Shown here one piece after another: positions 1,982 through 32,489 of a DNA stretch of 35,499 nt. Source of the stretch: a virus; the IMG/VR virus record IMGVR_UViG_3300025154_000271, positions 1 through 35,499 of that record. One strand, given 5' to 3'. The notes under the pieces were generated by a model. That model worked only from the letters and a program-made list of their open reading frames with translations. It had not been told where the DNA came from and did not search any database. Numbering within the stretch: the first letter of the stretch is position 1; every line of letters begins with the position of its first letter. The position numbers and the translations under genes were made by a program.

Positions 1982-3700
1982 CTACATCCCAGGGCGGGCT
2001 TGAGCGGCGAGCACGTTGGCGAAGCCTTGTTCGACGGCCGCTGTCACGAACGGCGCATCCTCGCGGGACGCGATGACATCGCCATTCCACGTGATCTGCG
2101 TGCCGCCGCCACTCACGCCGAGGTCGGAGAGCAGGTTGCGCGTGAGGCGAAGCGCCTGCGGGCGATACTGCGCACCCGTGGGGATGGTGTACTCGGGGCC
2201 GTCCTCACCCCAGAGATGCACCTGCGGGATGCCGGGGTTGTATGCGCCCTCGGCGTTCGGCGTGATGCCCTTGTAGCCGCTCGGGACTCCCGCCGAACCA
2301 CCGGCCGTCCCAAACGTGCGTTTGCTCGCGTCGTACATGCTGCCGATCTGCGCGGCGGCCTCACGGGCGCGGTCACGGATGCCCGCAAGCCACGCCTCGT
2401 ACTGCTTCTGCGTGGCGATGCCCGCGAGCGTCGTGCCGAGTTCCTGCTCCTTCGCCGTGAGGTCGGCTGCGGCATCCCCGGCCGCCCAGTTCGCATCCTC
2501 CATGCGCAACGCGGCCTTCTGCGCCTCATCGCTCTCTACGCCGTGCTCGGCGACGGCTTCGTTGTAGGCCGTGAGCGCGTCTTTGGCGGCGAATGCAGCC
2601 GTCGAGGCGTTGTTCTGGAGTTCGGCGAGCGTGCGCTCCTTGCCCGAGAGTTCGTCGGCGGCGACCATCGTGCCGTTCATCGCTCGTGTAAGGTCGTCCT
2701 GCTCGATCGCTGCTTCATCAGTGGCGGCGGCGAGGTCTTCGGTGGCGTACTGGCACCCCCGCACGACCTGCGTAGAACCTGCGATGAACACGTCACCCTC
2801 GGCGATGGTGTCCTGGAACTCGCGAAAGCTCGTGGTCGCCGCGGAACCGGACTCGGCCCACGCGTCCCACTGCAGGCGGACCTGCTCGTTGTTGCTCCAC
2901 GCGGCGCCGATCTCGTAGAAGAAGTCGAATACCGCTTCTCCCGCTCCACGGATGGCCTCGCCTGCATCCTTCGCGGCGGGCTCCATCCTGGTGAGCGCGG
3001 AGGACAACTCGTTGATGTCTGCCGCCGAGTCGCCGACAAGCCCCTCGCCGAACGCTTCCTTCAGGTTCTCGACGGCTATCTCGGTGCCCTCCATCGCACC
3101 CGTGAGCGTGTTCGCGTAGGCTTCGGCTTGGCCCGCATACTTCTGGCGGATCGCGGCGAGATACTCTTCTTTCGTCGCGTTCTCGCCGAGGATGATACCC
3201 ATCTTTCGGGCGGCGATGAAGTTACCCGCTTCGATTTTCGCTACCATCACGGCGGCGGCGGCAAGACCCATCTTTCTGCCGCGTGCGAGGTCCGTCACCA
3301 TCGCCAGGTCGTTCATCGCGGTCGAGGTCGAGCCGGTCGTCTGCGTCAATGTCGCCAGCGCGTCTTGCAGGTCCTCATCGTCGTAGGCAGACTTGCGCAT
3401 CGCGTCACTGACGGTCGAATCCAGCACCTCGGCCAACGCCTCGTAGCTCTCGCCGGTCGCGTTGACAGCCGCCTCTAGGCGCACGGCCGATACCTCGGCG
3501 GCGGCGTAGGCTTTGACCGAAGCCACGCCCATCGCCACGGCGGCGGAGCCGATAGCGGCCAGAGACACCCCGACTTTGCTCCCGACGCCCATGATGCCCT
3601 TGGCGCTCTTGCCGACAGCGCCGTCCACCTCAGACGCCGCCCGCTTCGCCGAGGACGCATCCCCGAGAAACTTGAGTATGAGTCGCTGCTCGTCAGCCAC
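1982..3700 (-). CDS. Tail tape measure protein
   Basis: The 572-aa protein sets tail length and is probably ejected with the DNA. It starts at a GTG (3698-3700) behind TAGGAG, just after the end of the frameshifted chaperone. The N-terminus (MADEQRLILKFLGDASSAKR) and the alanine-rich helix with a hydrophobic stretch near residues 40-65 are typical. A long Ala/Glu coiled-coil-like region spans about residues 330-440. The C-terminal 90 residues, rich in Gly and Pro (GEDGPEYTIPTGAQ), match the common tape-measure tail end. At about 0.15 nm per residue the tail would be near 85 nm, which is short for a siphovirus. Position between chaperone and distal tail gene supports the call. Confidence 0.88.
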   Translation of the reverse strand: MADEQRLILKFLGDASSAKRAASEVDGAVGKSAKGIMGVGSKVGVSLAAIGSAAVAMGVASVKAYAAAEVSAVRLEAAVNATGESYEALAEVLDSTVSDAMRKSAYDDEDLQDALATLTQTTGSTSTAMNDLAMVTDLARGRKMGLAAAAVMVAKIEAGNFIAARKMGIILGENATKEEYLAAIRQKYAGQAEAYANTLTGAMEGTEIAVENLKEAFGEGLVGDSAADINELSSALTRMEPAAKDAGEAIRGAGEAVFDFFYEIGAAWSNNEQVRLQWDAWAESGSAATTSFREFQDTIAEGDVFIAGSTQVVRGCQYATEDLAAATDEAAIEQDDLTRAMNGTMVAADELSGKERTLAELQNNASTAAFAAKDALTAYNEAVAEHGVESDEAQKAALRMEDANWAAGDAAADLTAKEQELGTTLAGIATQKQYEAWLAGIRDRAREAAAQIGSMYDASKRTFGTAGGSAGVPSGYKGITPNAEGAYNPGIPQVHLWGEDGPEYTIPTGAQYRPQALRLTRNLLSDLGVSGGGTQITWNGDVIASREDAPFVTAAVEQGFANVLAAQARPGM

Positions 3701-8870: not shown

Positions 8871-9320
8871 TTAGAGCAGCGCGATGATGTCGGCCTTGCG
8901 TGTGGCCTTGCCGAGATCGATACCCTTCTCGGCGGCGTATGCGCGAAGCTGCTTGATGGTGAGGTCATCGAACGCCGGGAGCACTGCGGCGACTTCGGCG
9001 TCGGGAGCTTCGGGAGCGTCCTCGGCGGGTTCGGGCACCTCGGGAGCGTCGGGAGCTTCAAGCTGCTCGGCGACTTCGGCGTCGGGAGCTTCGGGAGCGT
9101 CCTCGGCGGGTTCGGGCACCTCGGGAGCGTCGGGAGCTTCAAGCTGCTCGGCGACTTCGGCGTCCGCTTCGAGCACCACGGCCTCCAGGTACGGATCAGC
9201 CGCGATGGCCTCGTACTGCTCGGCGGTGACGTCGTGCTCATGCGCCGTCTTGTCGAAGTGCAGCCCCGCCCGGTAACGCTCGCCGGTGGGGTGATTGACC
9301 ACGCGCACGCTAATCAGCAT
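8871..9320 (-). CDS. Repeat-linker protein with C-terminal SAP/Rho-N-like helix domain
   Basis: The 149-aa protein has three parts. Residues 1-50 (MLISVRVVNHPTGERYRAGL...) form a small domain. Residues about 55-110 are an acidic Pro/Ala/Glu linker built from two copies of a 27-residue unit (APDAPEVPEPAED core). Residues 116-149 (FDDLTIKQLRAYAAEKGIDL...ATRKADIIALL) match the helix-extended-helix/SAP-like or Rho N-terminal pattern, which often binds nucleic acid. Such short proteins are common in head-tail modules. The function is unknown. The ATG start overlaps the gene upstream by 11 bp. Confidence 0.62.
   Translation of the reverse strand: MLISVRVVNHPTGERYRAGLHFDKTAHEHDVTAEQYEAIAADPYLEAVVLEADAEVAEQLEAPDAPEVPEPAEDAPEAPDAEVAEQLEAPDAPEVPEPAEDAPEAPDAEVAAVLPAFDDLTIKQLRAYAAEKGIDLGKATRKADIIALL
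8987..9163. repeat. 81-bp tandem duplication inside the linker gene
   Basis: The unit 8987-9067 is repeated at 9068-9148, followed by the first bases of a third copy. Since 81 is divisible by 3, the repeat adds 27 residues per copy and keeps the frame. The copies look identical, indicating recent duplication or active gain and loss. Confidence 0.9.
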
Positions 9321-20439: not shown

Positions 20440-21729
20440 TCATGCGAGTTCCTCGAATAGTGATCCCTGGTCGCGCTCCTTGACGGCCGCCGCAAGATTC
20501 TTGGCCGCCTGGTCGAAGTATGACCGCTTGAGCTCGGCGCCGACGAACCGCCGGCGCATCTTGAGTGCGACATACCCCTCGCTGCCGATTCCCGCAAAGG
20601 GCGACAGAACAATATCGCCGGGATTCGACCAGAGCAGCATCGCGCGTTCGATCACGTCGAGTTGCAGCGGGCAGATATGCCGCTCGTCTTTCTCATCACG
20701 CGCTGCCTCTTTCTGGAGCGTGCGGGACGGGTTGATGTCCATCCATACCGGGCTTGCGTACCGCTGCCAGATGTCGATTGATAGCCGCCCGGTGGACACG
20801 AACGTATCGTCTCCGACCCACGTATCGAGTTCACCCGCCACCGGGTTCTCGTTGACGCCAGGCTTCCGCATCGTCACGAGGTAGTCGGGGATTCCCTGCC
20901 GCGACATGCACGAGTCCTTCACAATCTGCTTGTGGAGCAACCCGAGCGCCTTCGTCCGCTGCATGGCCGTCACGGGGTCTTTCCAGATCACAACCTCCGA
21001 GTGGAAGATGAACCCCGCCGCGATGAATGACGCGATGAGTTCGCCGCGGAAGTCCCGAATGCCGATGTAGCCGTCGTGGGCCTTCGAGGTCGGAAGGTTC
21101 ATGCAGTGGAAGCTCAAGAGTCGGCCCGGTTTCATGACTCGGAATAGATCCCTGACCAGGTAGCCGAAGTGCTCCGCGAACTCCTCATTACCACGGCTGT
21201 TGCCCATGTCGCGCTCTGACGCCGAGTAGGTGTAGAGGCTCGCGAACGGCGGCGAGAACACGGAGAAGTCTATCGAGTCGGATTCGAGCCCGGCCACGAC
21301 CTCCACGCAGTCCCCAAGATGCAGCGTCCAATCCTCGCCCTCGGCGGTGCCGGTCGCATACGTGTCCTGCGTCTTCGTGAAGCCGTGAAGTTCCTGCTCG
21401 AGAATCGCGTGAGTGTGCTCGACCATCCCGTCGACCATCTTCTCGGCATCCTTCTGCTTGCGCTTGATATTGGCCATGACCGCCCCCTCTGCATCGGATA
21501 TGACGATGTGCGCGTCGACCGGACTCTGCTGGCCGAACCGCCAGCACCGCCGGACCGCCTGGTAGTACGACTCGTAGCTATCCGAGAGCCCCACGAATGC
21601 CACATTGCAGCAGTGCTGCCAGTTCATGCCCCACCCGGCGATACTCGGCTTACTGACCATCACCCGGATACGACCGTCGGTAAACGCGGCCATCGACTGC
21701 TCTTTGTGGTCGAGCGAGTCCGAGCCCAT
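20440..21729 (-). CDS. Helicase C-terminal end fused to N4/N6-type DNA methyltransferase (3' fragment)
   Basis: This is the downstream part of a helicase-methyltransferase gene, out of frame with the N-terminal part at 21660-22373. The first 70 residues carry late helicase motifs (VMVSKPSIAGWGMNWQHC, YYQAVRRCWRFGQ, motifs V and VI). A beta-class methyltransferase follows: catalytic SPPF near residue 159, and the AdoMet site SPFAGIGSEGYVALKMRR near 376, an order typical of class beta. Phages use such enzymes to protect DNA from restriction. The first in-frame ATG is 21727-21729; whether the fragment is translated alone is unknown. The methyltransferase domain appears complete. Confidence 0.75.
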   Translation of the reverse strand: MGSDSLDHKEQSMAAFTDGRIRVMVSKPSIAGWGMNWQHCCNVAFVGLSDSYESYYQAVRRCWRFGQQSPVDAHIVISDAEGAVMANIKRKQKDAEKMVDGMVEHTHAILEQELHGFTKTQDTYATGTAEGEDWTLHLGDCVEVVAGLESDSIDFSVFSPPFASLYTYSASERDMGNSRGNEEFAEHFGYLVRDLFRVMKPGRLLSFHCMNLPTSKAHDGYIGIRDFRGELIASFIAAGFIFHSEVVIWKDPVTAMQRTKALGLLHKQIVKDSCMSRQGIPDYLVTMRKPGVNENPVAGELDTWVGDDTFVSTGRLSIDIWQRYASPVWMDINPSRTLQKEAARDEKDERHICPLQLDVIERAMLLWSNPGDIVLSPFAGIGSEGYVALKMRRRFVGAELKRSYFDQAAKNLAAAVKERDQGSLFEELA

Positions 21730-22373
21730 CGCCAGAACGTGCCTTCGGCGTGACCTTTCACGCGCCACTTCGCGGTGTCGCCGCCGTCGTGGACGAAGAA
21801 CGTCGCCAGCATCTCGGAGCGGGTCATGATGCCCAGAAACTCGGAATGGTTGCCAAGCTCCATGTGATCGTTCGGTGCCGGGGTCGCGGTGCAGGCGAGC
21901 CGATACGGCGTGTCGCCGAACGCCTGGATGATCTCGGTGCGCGTCTTCCCGTCGTAGGCCTTGAGTATGCTCGACTCGTCAAGCACGATGCCGCCGAACT
22001 CCTCCGGTGTGAAGTGCTCGATCATCTCGTAGTTGGCGATGTTCACCCCGGGTCGCACATCGTCCTGCGATCGGCACACCGTCACACCGATGCCGAACTT
22101 CTCGCCTTCGCGGCGTGTCTGCTGCGCAACCGCGAGCGGCGCCAGGATGATGACTGGGAGCGCCGTATGCTCCGATACCTGGTGGGCCCACTCGAGCTGC
22201 ATCGGGCTCTTGCCGGTCCCGCAATCCGAGAAGATAGCCGCACGGCCGCGCTTGAGCGCCCACCTCACGATGTCGGACTGAAAGCCGAACAACATTGGGT
22301 TGAGATCGTCGACGTCGAACCCGATCGGCGACGCCTCGACGCGCTTCCCGTTCAGAAACTCCTCGTAGCTCAC
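21660..22373 (-). CDS. SNF2-type helicase N-terminal fragment (5' part of a broken helicase-methyltransferase)
   Basis: A GTG at 22371-22373 behind AGGAGGCTCAC opens a DEAD-like/SNF2 helicase. It has the Q-like segment FGFQSDIVRWALKRGRAAI, Walker A DCGTGKS (residues 50-56), motif II LDES (131-134) and motif III CTATPAPND (161-169). Relatives continue past KWRVKGHAE.-FWRW for about 100 residues before motifs V-VI. Here the frame ends soon after FWRW with unrelated residues and stops at 21660. The rest of the protein appears in another frame from about 21738. The gene looks deleted and frameshifted. Confidence 0.72.
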   Translation of the reverse strand: MSYEEFLNGKRVEASPIGFDVDDLNPMLFGFQSDIVRWALKRGRAAIFSDCGTGKSPMQLEWAHQVSEHTALPVIILAPLAVAQQTRREGEKFGIGVTVCRSQDDVRPGVNIANYEMIEHFTPEEFGGIVLDESSILKAYDGKTRTEIIQAFGDTPYRLACTATPAPNDHMELGNHSEFLGIMTRSEMLATFFVHDGGDTAKWRVKGHAEGTFWRWARTRSTTKSSRWPRLPTVVSG

Positions 22374-29628: not shown

Positions 29629-30275
29629 TTAGAACAGGCGTCCGCCCTCTAGGGCTTCCATTGCTTCACACACGGCGAGCGACAGCAGGTACGGCACGAC
29701 AGCGCGTTCGGCAGCCCCGGAGATACCCTGGGTTCCCGTCTTGGCCCCACGCGGCGCACGCTCGTGGCATGGATCCCCGTTCTTACACATCGGGTTGAAC
29801 GTCAGGCCGGCGGGGAAGTGACCCCATAGGTCAGTGGGCTTCATGCGTGTTTGACCGTACTGGCAGTAGGTAACTGTTACGCGAGGAAGCCCGGCCACGC
29901 ACGGCAGCTTGCGAAGTACGCCGCGAGGGTTCTCCATGATCCACGCCCTCGGTCCCAGCCCGGCGATAAGCCGGACTGTGTGGGCGACTACTTCTTGCGA
30001 CAACCGCGCGTGCTCGGTATTAGGAACATACGCCCGCGCCCCACCAGTCCAGTGATGTCCGATGCTGGCAACGCTAAACGCTTCGCATGGCGGGCTGGCC
30101 CAGATGAAGTCGAACGGACCGAACCGTGCAAGATCATCGACGGAGAGCGCCAGGATGTTCGCTGTAATCGTGCAACCGAAGCGGGGGTCGATGTCCGAAG
30201 TAATCACAGCGTGGCCTCGGTCGCGGAACGCCGCTGACCCCCCCCGAGCCCCGAGAATAGGTCGAGGATTCTCAC
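29629..30275 (-). pseudogene. DNA (cytosine-5) methyltransferase, frameshifted at a G8 tract
   Basis: A GTG at 30273-30275 behind GAGGGTGACGGC starts RILDLFSGLGGG, the AdoMet-binding motif I of C5 methyltransferases. After eight Gs (30238-30245) the frame is lost and stops early. One frame over it continues SAAFRDRGHAVITSDIDPRF and then IWASPPCEAFSVAS with the catalytic Cys (motif IV), WIMENPRG (ENV-type motif VI) and PRVTVTYCQYGQTRMKPTDL. With one more G the frame would be intact, about 215 aa. The enzyme would protect phage DNA from restriction. It could be phase-variable, broken or misread. A GTG at 30205-30207 could start a shorter product, but this would lack motif I. Confidence 0.8.
30238..30245 (-). 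repeat. G8 homopolymer in the methyltransferase gene
   Basis: Eight Gs on the minus strand lie exactly where the reading frame breaks, between motif I (DLFSGLGG) and SAAFRDRG. Such tracts slip in replication and are also error-prone in sequencing. Confidence 0.85.
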
Positions 30276-30448
30276 GCCGTCACCCTCACGCGATCAGCCG
30301 GCACCGTGAACCAGCGATGCACCCACACGGCCCCCATGCGCTCCTGCGTCATGACGGTCACGACGTCCCCATCGCATCGGTACACGACGCCGGGTAGCCA
30401 CCTCGCGCGGCGTAGCGGCTTGACCTGCACGTGCGTCCCCTCGGTCAC
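30272..30448 (-). CDS. Hypothetical 58-aa beta-rich protein
   Basis: A GTG at 30446-30448 behind AAGGAGGGGTGAGCT opens this gene, and its TGA overlaps the methyltransferase GTG as GTGA. The product starts MTEGTHVQVKPLRRARWLPG, continues VVYRCDGDVVTVMTQERMGA and ends PADRVRVTA, resembling a small SH3-like barrel. No family is assigned. Ribosome site and coupling are strong evidence that it is real. Confidence 0.6.
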   Translation of the reverse strand: MTEGTHVQVKPLRRARWLPGVVYRCDGDVVTVMTQERMGAVWVHRWFTVPADRVRVTA

Positions 30449-31301: not shown

Positions 31302-31471
31302 TTCGCCCCCTCGACCGCCGCGATGATGGCCTGCGTGGCCTGGTTCATCGCACGGATGATGAGGACGGTGGCGGTGCCGGTCGTCAGCATCCCAAGCGGT
31401 CCCGCCGCTCGGATAGCCGCGTCCTCCGTCTTGTCGAGCGCGTCAAGCCACGACTTCACTGCGGGGCTCAT
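31298..31471 (-). CDS. Small 57-aa protein with hydrophobic helix
   Basis: The ATG at 31469-31471 overlaps the repeat gene's TGA as ATGA, with GAGGACGTGACACG in front. The product starts MSPAVKSWLDALDKTEDAAI, then GMLTTGTATVLIIRAMNQAT. The hydrophobic C-terminal half may associate with the membrane. The longer frame upstream only runs through the minisatellite and is rejected. Confidence 0.5.
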   Translation of the reverse strand: MSPAVKSWLDALDKTEDAAIRAAGPLGMLTTGTATVLIIRAMNQATQAIIAAVEGAK

Positions 31472-32304
31472 CGTGTCACGTCCTCGATGTAGCCGAGCAG
31501 GATACGCCCATTCGCGCTCCGTGCCGCGCTCCGTGCCGCGCTCCGTGCCGCGCTCCATGCCGCGCTCCATGCCGCGTCCTTCGCCGCGCTCTCTGCCGCG
31601 CTCTCTGCCGCGCTCCGTGCCGCGCTCCATGCCGCGCTCCATGCCGCGCTCCATGCCGCGCTCCATGCCGCGTCCTTCGCCGCGCTCTCTGCCGCGCTCT
31701 CTGCCGCGCTCCGTGCCGCGCTCCATGCCGCGCTCCATGCCGCGCTCTCTGCCGCGCTCCATGCCGCGCTCTCTGCCGCGCTCTCTGCCGCGCTCCATGC
31801 CGCGCTCCATGCCGCGTCCTTCGCCGCGCTCTCTGCCGCGCTCCATGCCGCGCTCCATGCCGCGTCCTTCGCCGCGCTCTCTGCCGCGCTCCATGCCGCG
31901 TCATCAAGGAAACCGAGCGAGTAGGCACGAACGGCGTTGATGCACTCGCCCACACGCGGGTCGCCGGTGTTGTGCAGGACGGACTCAGCGAACAGCGTCC
32001 CGAGCCAACGCAGGTCGTACTCGTCGAGTGAGATGAGGCGCTTGGTCAATCGGATGCGCTCAGCCACGCACTTGTCGCCAGCGTCCGTGACACCCTCGGC
32101 CTCGCACTCCCACACCTCAAGCGGCAGGAACTCGTCGCTGCCAGCGAAGAGCCACGCGCAAACCTGCTCTAGCGTGGCGATGTGCCACCCGCGCTTGCAG
32201 GCTTTCGTGTCGGTGATGCGCCGCGTCCAGCGGTTCGGACGATAGGTGTACGTCCCGCCGTGGCACGCCTTGTGACCGACGGAGAGAATCTTGTAGTAGA
32301 TCAT
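31468..32304 (-). CDS. WSAA-repeat protein with N-terminal DUF7666-like domain
   Basis: The 278-aa protein starts at ATG 32302-32304 behind GAGGAGGAGTCGCG. The N-terminal 130 residues (MIYYKILSVGHKACHGGTYT, GWHIATLEQVCAWLF, LPLEVWECEAEGV) resemble a family of short phage proteins that sense or bind an unknown ligand. Residues about 136-265 consist of tetrapeptide units AWSA, AESA, ARSA and AKDA, about 32 of them, predicted to be helical. A closing NGRILLGYIEDVTR follows. Alanine-rich repeats of this type recur in phage genomes; their function is unknown to me. Confidence 0.72.
   Translation of the reverse strand: MIYYKILSVGHKACHGGTYTYRPNRWTRRITDTKACKRGWHIATLEQVCAWLFAGSDEFLPLEVWECEAEGVTDAGDKCVAERIRLTKRLISLDEYDLRWLGTLFAESVLHNTGDPRVGECINAVRAYSLGFLDDAAWSAAESAAKDAAWSAAWSAAESAAKDAAWSAAWSAAESAAESAAWSAAESAAWSAAWSAARSAAESAAESAAKDAAWSAAWSAAWSAAWSAARSAAESAAESAAKDAAWSAAWSAARSAARSAARSANGRILLGYIEDVTR
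31514..31900. repeat. 12-bp minisatellite of about 32 units
   Basis: Direct 12-bp units alternate among four forms: GCGCTCCATGCC, GCGCTCTCTGCC, GCGCTCCGTGCC and GCGTCCTTCGCC (plus strand). Larger blocks of several units recur in the same order (for example around 31560-31620 and 31675-31715), showing block duplication. None of the units makes a stop in any minus frame, so all three frames are open across it. Confidence 0.95.
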
Positions 32305-32489
32305 CGCGACTCCTCCTCGGCGTAGATGTCCGTCCACACGCGCCACGCGCAATCCTCGGTCGTCTCATCGCCGCAGGAGGCGTGACATGAGTCCTTGAGC
32401 GGGCATTCGTCGGCTTCCACGAGCAGCGTCGCGAGACGCATCCCCGCGCGTTCGTGCGCTTCGAGTGTGGCGGTGTCTACCTCGTCCAT
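32301..32489 (-). CDS. Small 62-aa protein, first gene after P1
   Basis: The ATG at 32487-32489 is behind GAGGGGATGATGGACG. The acidic product starts MDEVDTATLEAHERAGMRLA and contains CPLKDSCHASCGDETTEDC (Cys at about 29, 35, 39 and 47), perhaps a metal site. It is the first gene of the early region and is probably made in quantity. No family is recognised. Confidence 0.6.
   Translation of the reverse strand: MDEVDTATLEAHERAGMRLATLLVEADECPLKDSCHASCGDETTEDCAWRVWTDIYAEEESR

Follow-up and report, generated by a model that had tools for sequence, protein, structure and literature searches.

A small orphan gene for a C5-cytosine DNA methyltransferase (PHROG 757/PF00145 type) is frame-broken at a run of eight Gs on the minus strand (29629..30275) of the virus record analysed here, hereafter called the window (the whole stretch of 35,499 bases, 65 % G+C). 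It is probably the OFF copy of a phage-borne gene of this orphan type, with a poly-G tract within its coding sequence that is prone to slippage; we put the probability of this reading at approximately two in three. For the enzyme family to which the gene belongs, slippage-driven ON/OFF variation is strongly supported by comparison of sequences. The poly-G phase-variable switch that the initial annotation had proposed is thereby supported by relatives, with one-base variants of G8-G13 and C9-C10 tracts and the G9 tract of locus L231, and not by the window alone.

The methyltransferase gene and its G8 tract

The gene starts with a GTG at position 30275, sharing the letters GTGA with the stop of an upstream ORF of 58 amino acids (30272-30448). 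The minus-strand letters 30275-30246 (GTG AGA ATC CTC GAC CTA TTC TCG GGG CTC) comprise this start and the first part of motif I (30246..30275), coding for VRILDLFSGL. The G8 tract follows within motif I (30238..30245, minus strand; C8 on the plus strand) and is one base short of uniting the two frames of the methyltransferase. Directly after it the minus strand continues with TCAGCGGCG..., and the remainder of the enzyme (29629..30237, minus strand) is read in the other frame, as SAAFRDRG...SPPC...ENPRG..., with an open stretch of 202 codons and a stop at 29629. This part contains SPPC (motif IV), ENPRG (motif VI), YCQYGQTRMKPTDLW, CKNGxxCH and APRGxxTGTQG, and its translation also reads SAAFRDRGH, KPTDLW and APRGAKTGTQG. 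The OFF-state frame (frame 0) is closed after 23 codons by a TGA (30204..30206, minus strand), which overlaps a GTG (30205-30207) opening an ORF of 192 amino acids that lacks motif I. The initial annotation had described a methyltransferase interrupted exactly at the G8 at 29629-30275, with a DLFSGLGG-type motif I in one frame, SAAFRDRG.../SPPC in another, and a single G sufficient to restore the gene. The coordinates were right, on the minus strand, both frames could be read out, and the tract does leave the gene one base out of frame.

The downstream part matched PHROG 757 (DNA methyltransferase) with an E-value of 1.7e-26 and, weakly and under the curated cut-off, Pfam PF00145 (E 5.8e-4, motif I missing). 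The Pfam cut-off was passed by the intact relatives L022, L010, L045, L099 and L043, and the relative L117 had no Pfam hit. The catalytic Pro-Cys of motif IV and the ENP/R motif VI are kept in the window gene. The SAM-binding motif I is present but divided by the G8 and so not in one frame, and therefore the window copy, in the form sequenced, does not encode a working enzyme. Enzymes of the family are small, about 205-245 amino acids. The fold was modelled with AlphaFold on the intact relative L231 and not on the window copy; the model had a pLDDT of 89, and its best PDB matches were DNMT3A/3B and M.HhaI (E 1e-7 to 1e-6, TM about 0.5). Judged by sequence, the window gene belongs to the C5-cytosine DNA methyltransferases, its enzyme activity and target being predicted ones. 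The neighbours tested were a DUF1351 protein, an Erf annealing protein, an HTH (helix-turn-helix) protein and short unmatched proteins; no restriction enzyme or nuclease gene was recognised among them beside the methyltransferase. A restriction-modification cassette was among the readings rejected. An intact second gene in the window (20440-21768) matches phage helicase and DNA methyltransferase profiles and is 62 % identical to the 'DNA methylase' of Synechococcus phage S-CBS3.

Apart from the G8 tract, the 35.5 kb of the window contain no homopolymer of seven bases or longer; G/C runs of five, six, seven and eight bases numbered 28, 4, 0 and 1, respectively. Approximately 1.1 G/C runs of eight or more would be expected (first-order Markov estimate), so that one such run is unsurprising; what is notable about the G8 is that it coincides exactly with the break in frame of an enzyme that is conserved otherwise, and not that it is present. 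By the simple-repeat criterion (a homopolymer of 7-8 or more inside an ORF) the tract is a candidate for phase variation. In Campylobacter a cut-off of 7 G/C has been used, with experimental evidence for tracts of 8 or more (PMC6321876), and a tract of eight is near the lower limit of the lengths prone to slippage. The window also contains a 12-bp tandem repeat array of 32 copies (31513-31900) inside a minus-strand ORF (31468-32352), where it codes for WSAA/ESAA/RSAA repeats; changes in copy number would keep the frame, since the unit is a multiple of three. A perfect 81-bp tandem repeat of 2.2 copies is found within a coding region at 8987-9164.

It is rather unlikely that the break is a sequencing or assembly indel, in which case the true sequence would be one base longer, for example with a Trp or Phe codon at the site, and the gene would be intact. 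The window is a single metagenomic viral contig, known from assembled sequence alone, and inspection of the sequence showed that loss of the T from GGGGGGTGG would itself yield G8. Such an error would, however, have fallen on the sole run of this length in the window, and no other window gene looked frame-broken in a coarse GC-by-position scan.

Of the residues that 24 relatives share without exception, 29 could be tested in the window, and all 29 are kept, downstream of the G8; therefore the gene is not decayed and not an old pseudogene. An ordinary inactivating mutation, with the methyltransferase lost through a one-base indel and decay just beginning, would agree with the single frame break and with the lack of a tract at this site in the closest relatives. 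It is distinctly improbable, given that the downstream frame has no further stops and that the invariant residues are retained.

Tracts and frame breaks across the enzyme family

About 150 family loci (denoted by L numbers) were fetched by similarity. A protein search of IMG/VR with the window sequence as the sole query gave no match, and an alignment was needed as the query. Enrichment was assessed in the loci fetched by protein similarity alone. In viral loci, G/C runs of eight or more numbered 5 in 48.6 kb of the gene and 2 in 355.8 kb of flanking sequence (18-fold, p 4e-4), and in genome loci 6 in 39.2 kb of the gene and 4 in 317.4 kb of flank (12-fold, p 3e-4). The excess could reflect glycine-rich motifs, but 7 of 123 in-frame genes had a G/C run of at least eight, whereas shuffling of synonymous codons gave an expectation of 2.0 (maximum 6 in 300 shuffles). 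Chance may explain some of the in-frame genes with G8-G9.

The frame-split genes of the similarity-fetched set, L139 (C9), L140 (C10), L142 (G9) and L146 (G9), all broke at the run (4/4); the apparent split of L098 proved to be false, the second part being a tandem second gene. This confinement of breaks to long G/C runs, and not to random places, also speaks against a chance inactivation of the window gene, and random decay was rejected on this ground together with the kept residues. Breaks were found in isolate assemblies too (Adlercreutzia mucosicola DSM 19490 and A. caecimuris B7), and the independent occurrence of the same type of break in the family, these isolates included, is evidence against an indel error in the window. 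Two metagenome-derived relatives were broken at C6 (L002) or by a stop codon (L112), which could be error or decay. The former, a phage genome from Manatee Spring (MW202733.1), has the family gene broken at C6 in ENPRG at position 3318, and in the record one piece is annotated as a DNA cytosine methyltransferase and another as a hypothetical protein.

With pattern scans added, and with repeat fetches of the same contig or place excluded, 28 family loci had G/C runs of eight or more. Of these, 18 kept the frame and 10 were out of frame; since the scans select for tracts, the numbers cannot be read as frequencies. The tracts reported in the family are G8-G13 or C9-C10 runs, and they occur at approximately seven sites: in motif I, shortly after motif I, after HHW, before WFIENP, at ENPRGG, at PTDLWG and before CH. 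A G-run after HHW was matched by pattern in 42 contigs, 15 of which had family members, and ENPRG followed by eight Gs was matched in two contigs, with a family gene detected in neither. Searches of whole genomes, 138 from the Adlercreutzia family and 394 from the order of genome G004, yielded few extra members and no new length pair. The named phages with intact family members (BM15, CM1, HFTV1 and others) had no long tract. In L135, a Dependentiae contig, G9 tracts were present at 2983 and 4063 in two adjacent genes, the family methyltransferase and an adjoining gene resembling another C5 methyltransferase.

Length variants and the motif I position in relatives

Tract length was found to differ between near-identical copies, and to toggle the frame, in two sets of relatives. 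L154 (G11, out of frame, OFF) and L158 (G12, in frame, ON) were 99.4 % identical over 6,677 aligned bp, with a single indel, located in the tract; that the sole indel in 6.7 kb is in the tract further argues against an indel error. L190 (G9, OFF) and L163/L156 (G10, ON) agreed at 597 of the 600 bases surrounding the tract and differed further by the one G within it. The broader clade that includes L158 had G11 and G13 out of frame and G12 in frame, so the OFF lengths flank the ON length. On a tree made with a quick method, at least 7 tract gains or losses were counted by strongly supported branches and 11 by parsimony. The changes of length in both directions fit replication slippage and not a fixed programmed frameshift.

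In a programmed frameshift the ribosome or RNA polymerase would slip on the G8 and some full-length enzyme would be made from the gene as sequenced. A G-run is slippery, and from the sequence a -1 slip would unite the two frames. The many tract-bearing relatives that are in frame would, however, be harmed by such slipping, the OFF genes would have to be shifted in opposite directions (G11 and G13, on either side of G12), and the tract lies at about seven different places. Programmed frameshifting was rejected on these three points and is extremely improbable.

At the position of the G8 itself, relatives with a GLGG-type motif I among the similarity-fetched loci have ordinary codons, for example L028 with GGAGGCTGG (TGG, Trp) and L148 with GGTGGGTTC (TTC, Phe), and the closest relatives, L090, L010 and L018, have motif I without the tract. 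Codons of this kind at the site favour an indel error, and since the closest relatives lack a homopolymer and some have TGG, the window taken alone could reflect an isolated indel or error. When motif I was scanned by pattern for runs of at least eight Gs, L231 was identified, a relative of L010 (63 % identical) with an in-frame G9 (GLGGGW) exactly at the position of the window's G8. The initial annotation had held that an ordinary codon such as TGG in relatives would count against a switch; in this respect the closest relatives, without a homopolymer and with TGG in L028, do speak against it, while the in-frame G9 of L231 and the length variants elsewhere in the family speak for it. The searches yielded no sibling nearly identical to the window and differing from it in tract length; a search with the neighbouring DUF1351 protein gave no related contigs, and therefore no sibling phage. 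The scan of motif I also matched L226 (6017-6042, minus strand), a C5 methyltransferase without a match to the family that is frame-broken at G9 in motif I, which suggests that the switch may extend beyond this methyltransferase family.

For the window's own phage we infer slippage from the one OFF state observed, the slip-prone length of the tract, the conserved coding in both frames and the in-frame tract of L231 at the same site.

Proposed switching and its meaning

In the proposed switch, the poly-G tract would gain or lose a G during DNA replication, and this change would join or separate the part with motif I (the SAM-binding loop) and the remainder of the enzyme. A phage population would then be a mixture in which ON genomes are methylated and OFF genomes unmethylated. 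The window would be an OFF copy, with translation predicted to end after 23 residues; were translation to restart at the internal GTG, the product would lack motif I. Bet-hedging would be the likely benefit. Methylation would be protective where a host restriction enzyme shares the methyltransferase's target, and the unmethylated state would escape hosts with methylation-dependent restriction, so methylated and unmethylated phage would likely suit hosts with opposite restriction systems. This selective benefit is put forward as a hypothesis.

In bacteria, phase-variable methyltransferases are well known. The CpG C5-methyltransferase of Mycoplasma agalactiae has an in-frame poly(G) of 6-11, the length of which truncates or restores the enzyme, and active variation of the tract has been demonstrated by fragment-length analysis (PMC9465063). 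Like the present family it is a C5 methyltransferase switched by poly(G) length, but it is bacterial and its single tract site lies mid-gene, whereas the family consists of small phage-borne enzymes whose tracts lie at many sites. Phase-variable restriction-modification genes and phasevarions, e.g. the Type IIG genes of Campylobacter jejuni (PMC4889913), similarly have methylation turned ON or OFF by slippage in simple repeats. They are, however, located in the host chromosome and usually have a restriction function, in contrast to the phage gene with no recognised adjoining nuclease.

Among phages, Campylobacter Fletchervirus phages have hypermutable poly-G tracts (Sorensen et al. 2021, as cited in PMC10579305, PMC11868660 and PMC11959909). 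As far as these citing papers describe them, the length of poly-G switches phage genes there as in the present family, but the genes encode receptor-binding proteins, altering host recognition and not DNA modification. Reviews treat phase variation in phages as an exceptional case, represented by the receptor-binding proteins of Campylobacter phages (PMC11959909, PMC11868660), and a phage methyltransferase switched by poly-G was not found among the open-access reports searched. The earlier statement that such switching has rarely been described for the modification genes of phages agrees with the literature searched. Small C5 methyltransferases of PHROG 757 from Bacillus phage BM15 and Haloferax tailed virus 1 belong to the same family by profile and alignment, but their genes are intact and without a long G/C tract.

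On balance, the evidence favours a family of phage orphan C5 methyltransferases that would have been convergently fitted with poly-G/C switches at approximately seven places, with phages in many environments hedging methylation genome by genome, probably against opposite restriction systems. Tracts that arose repeatedly within a single enzyme family amount to a natural experiment, and genes of this kind that are annotated as broken or split in viral databases may be switchable. If phages flip their own DNA modification, a population would be epigenetically mixed before it meets a host, and restriction, methylation-dependent restriction and phage host range would have to be measured differently.
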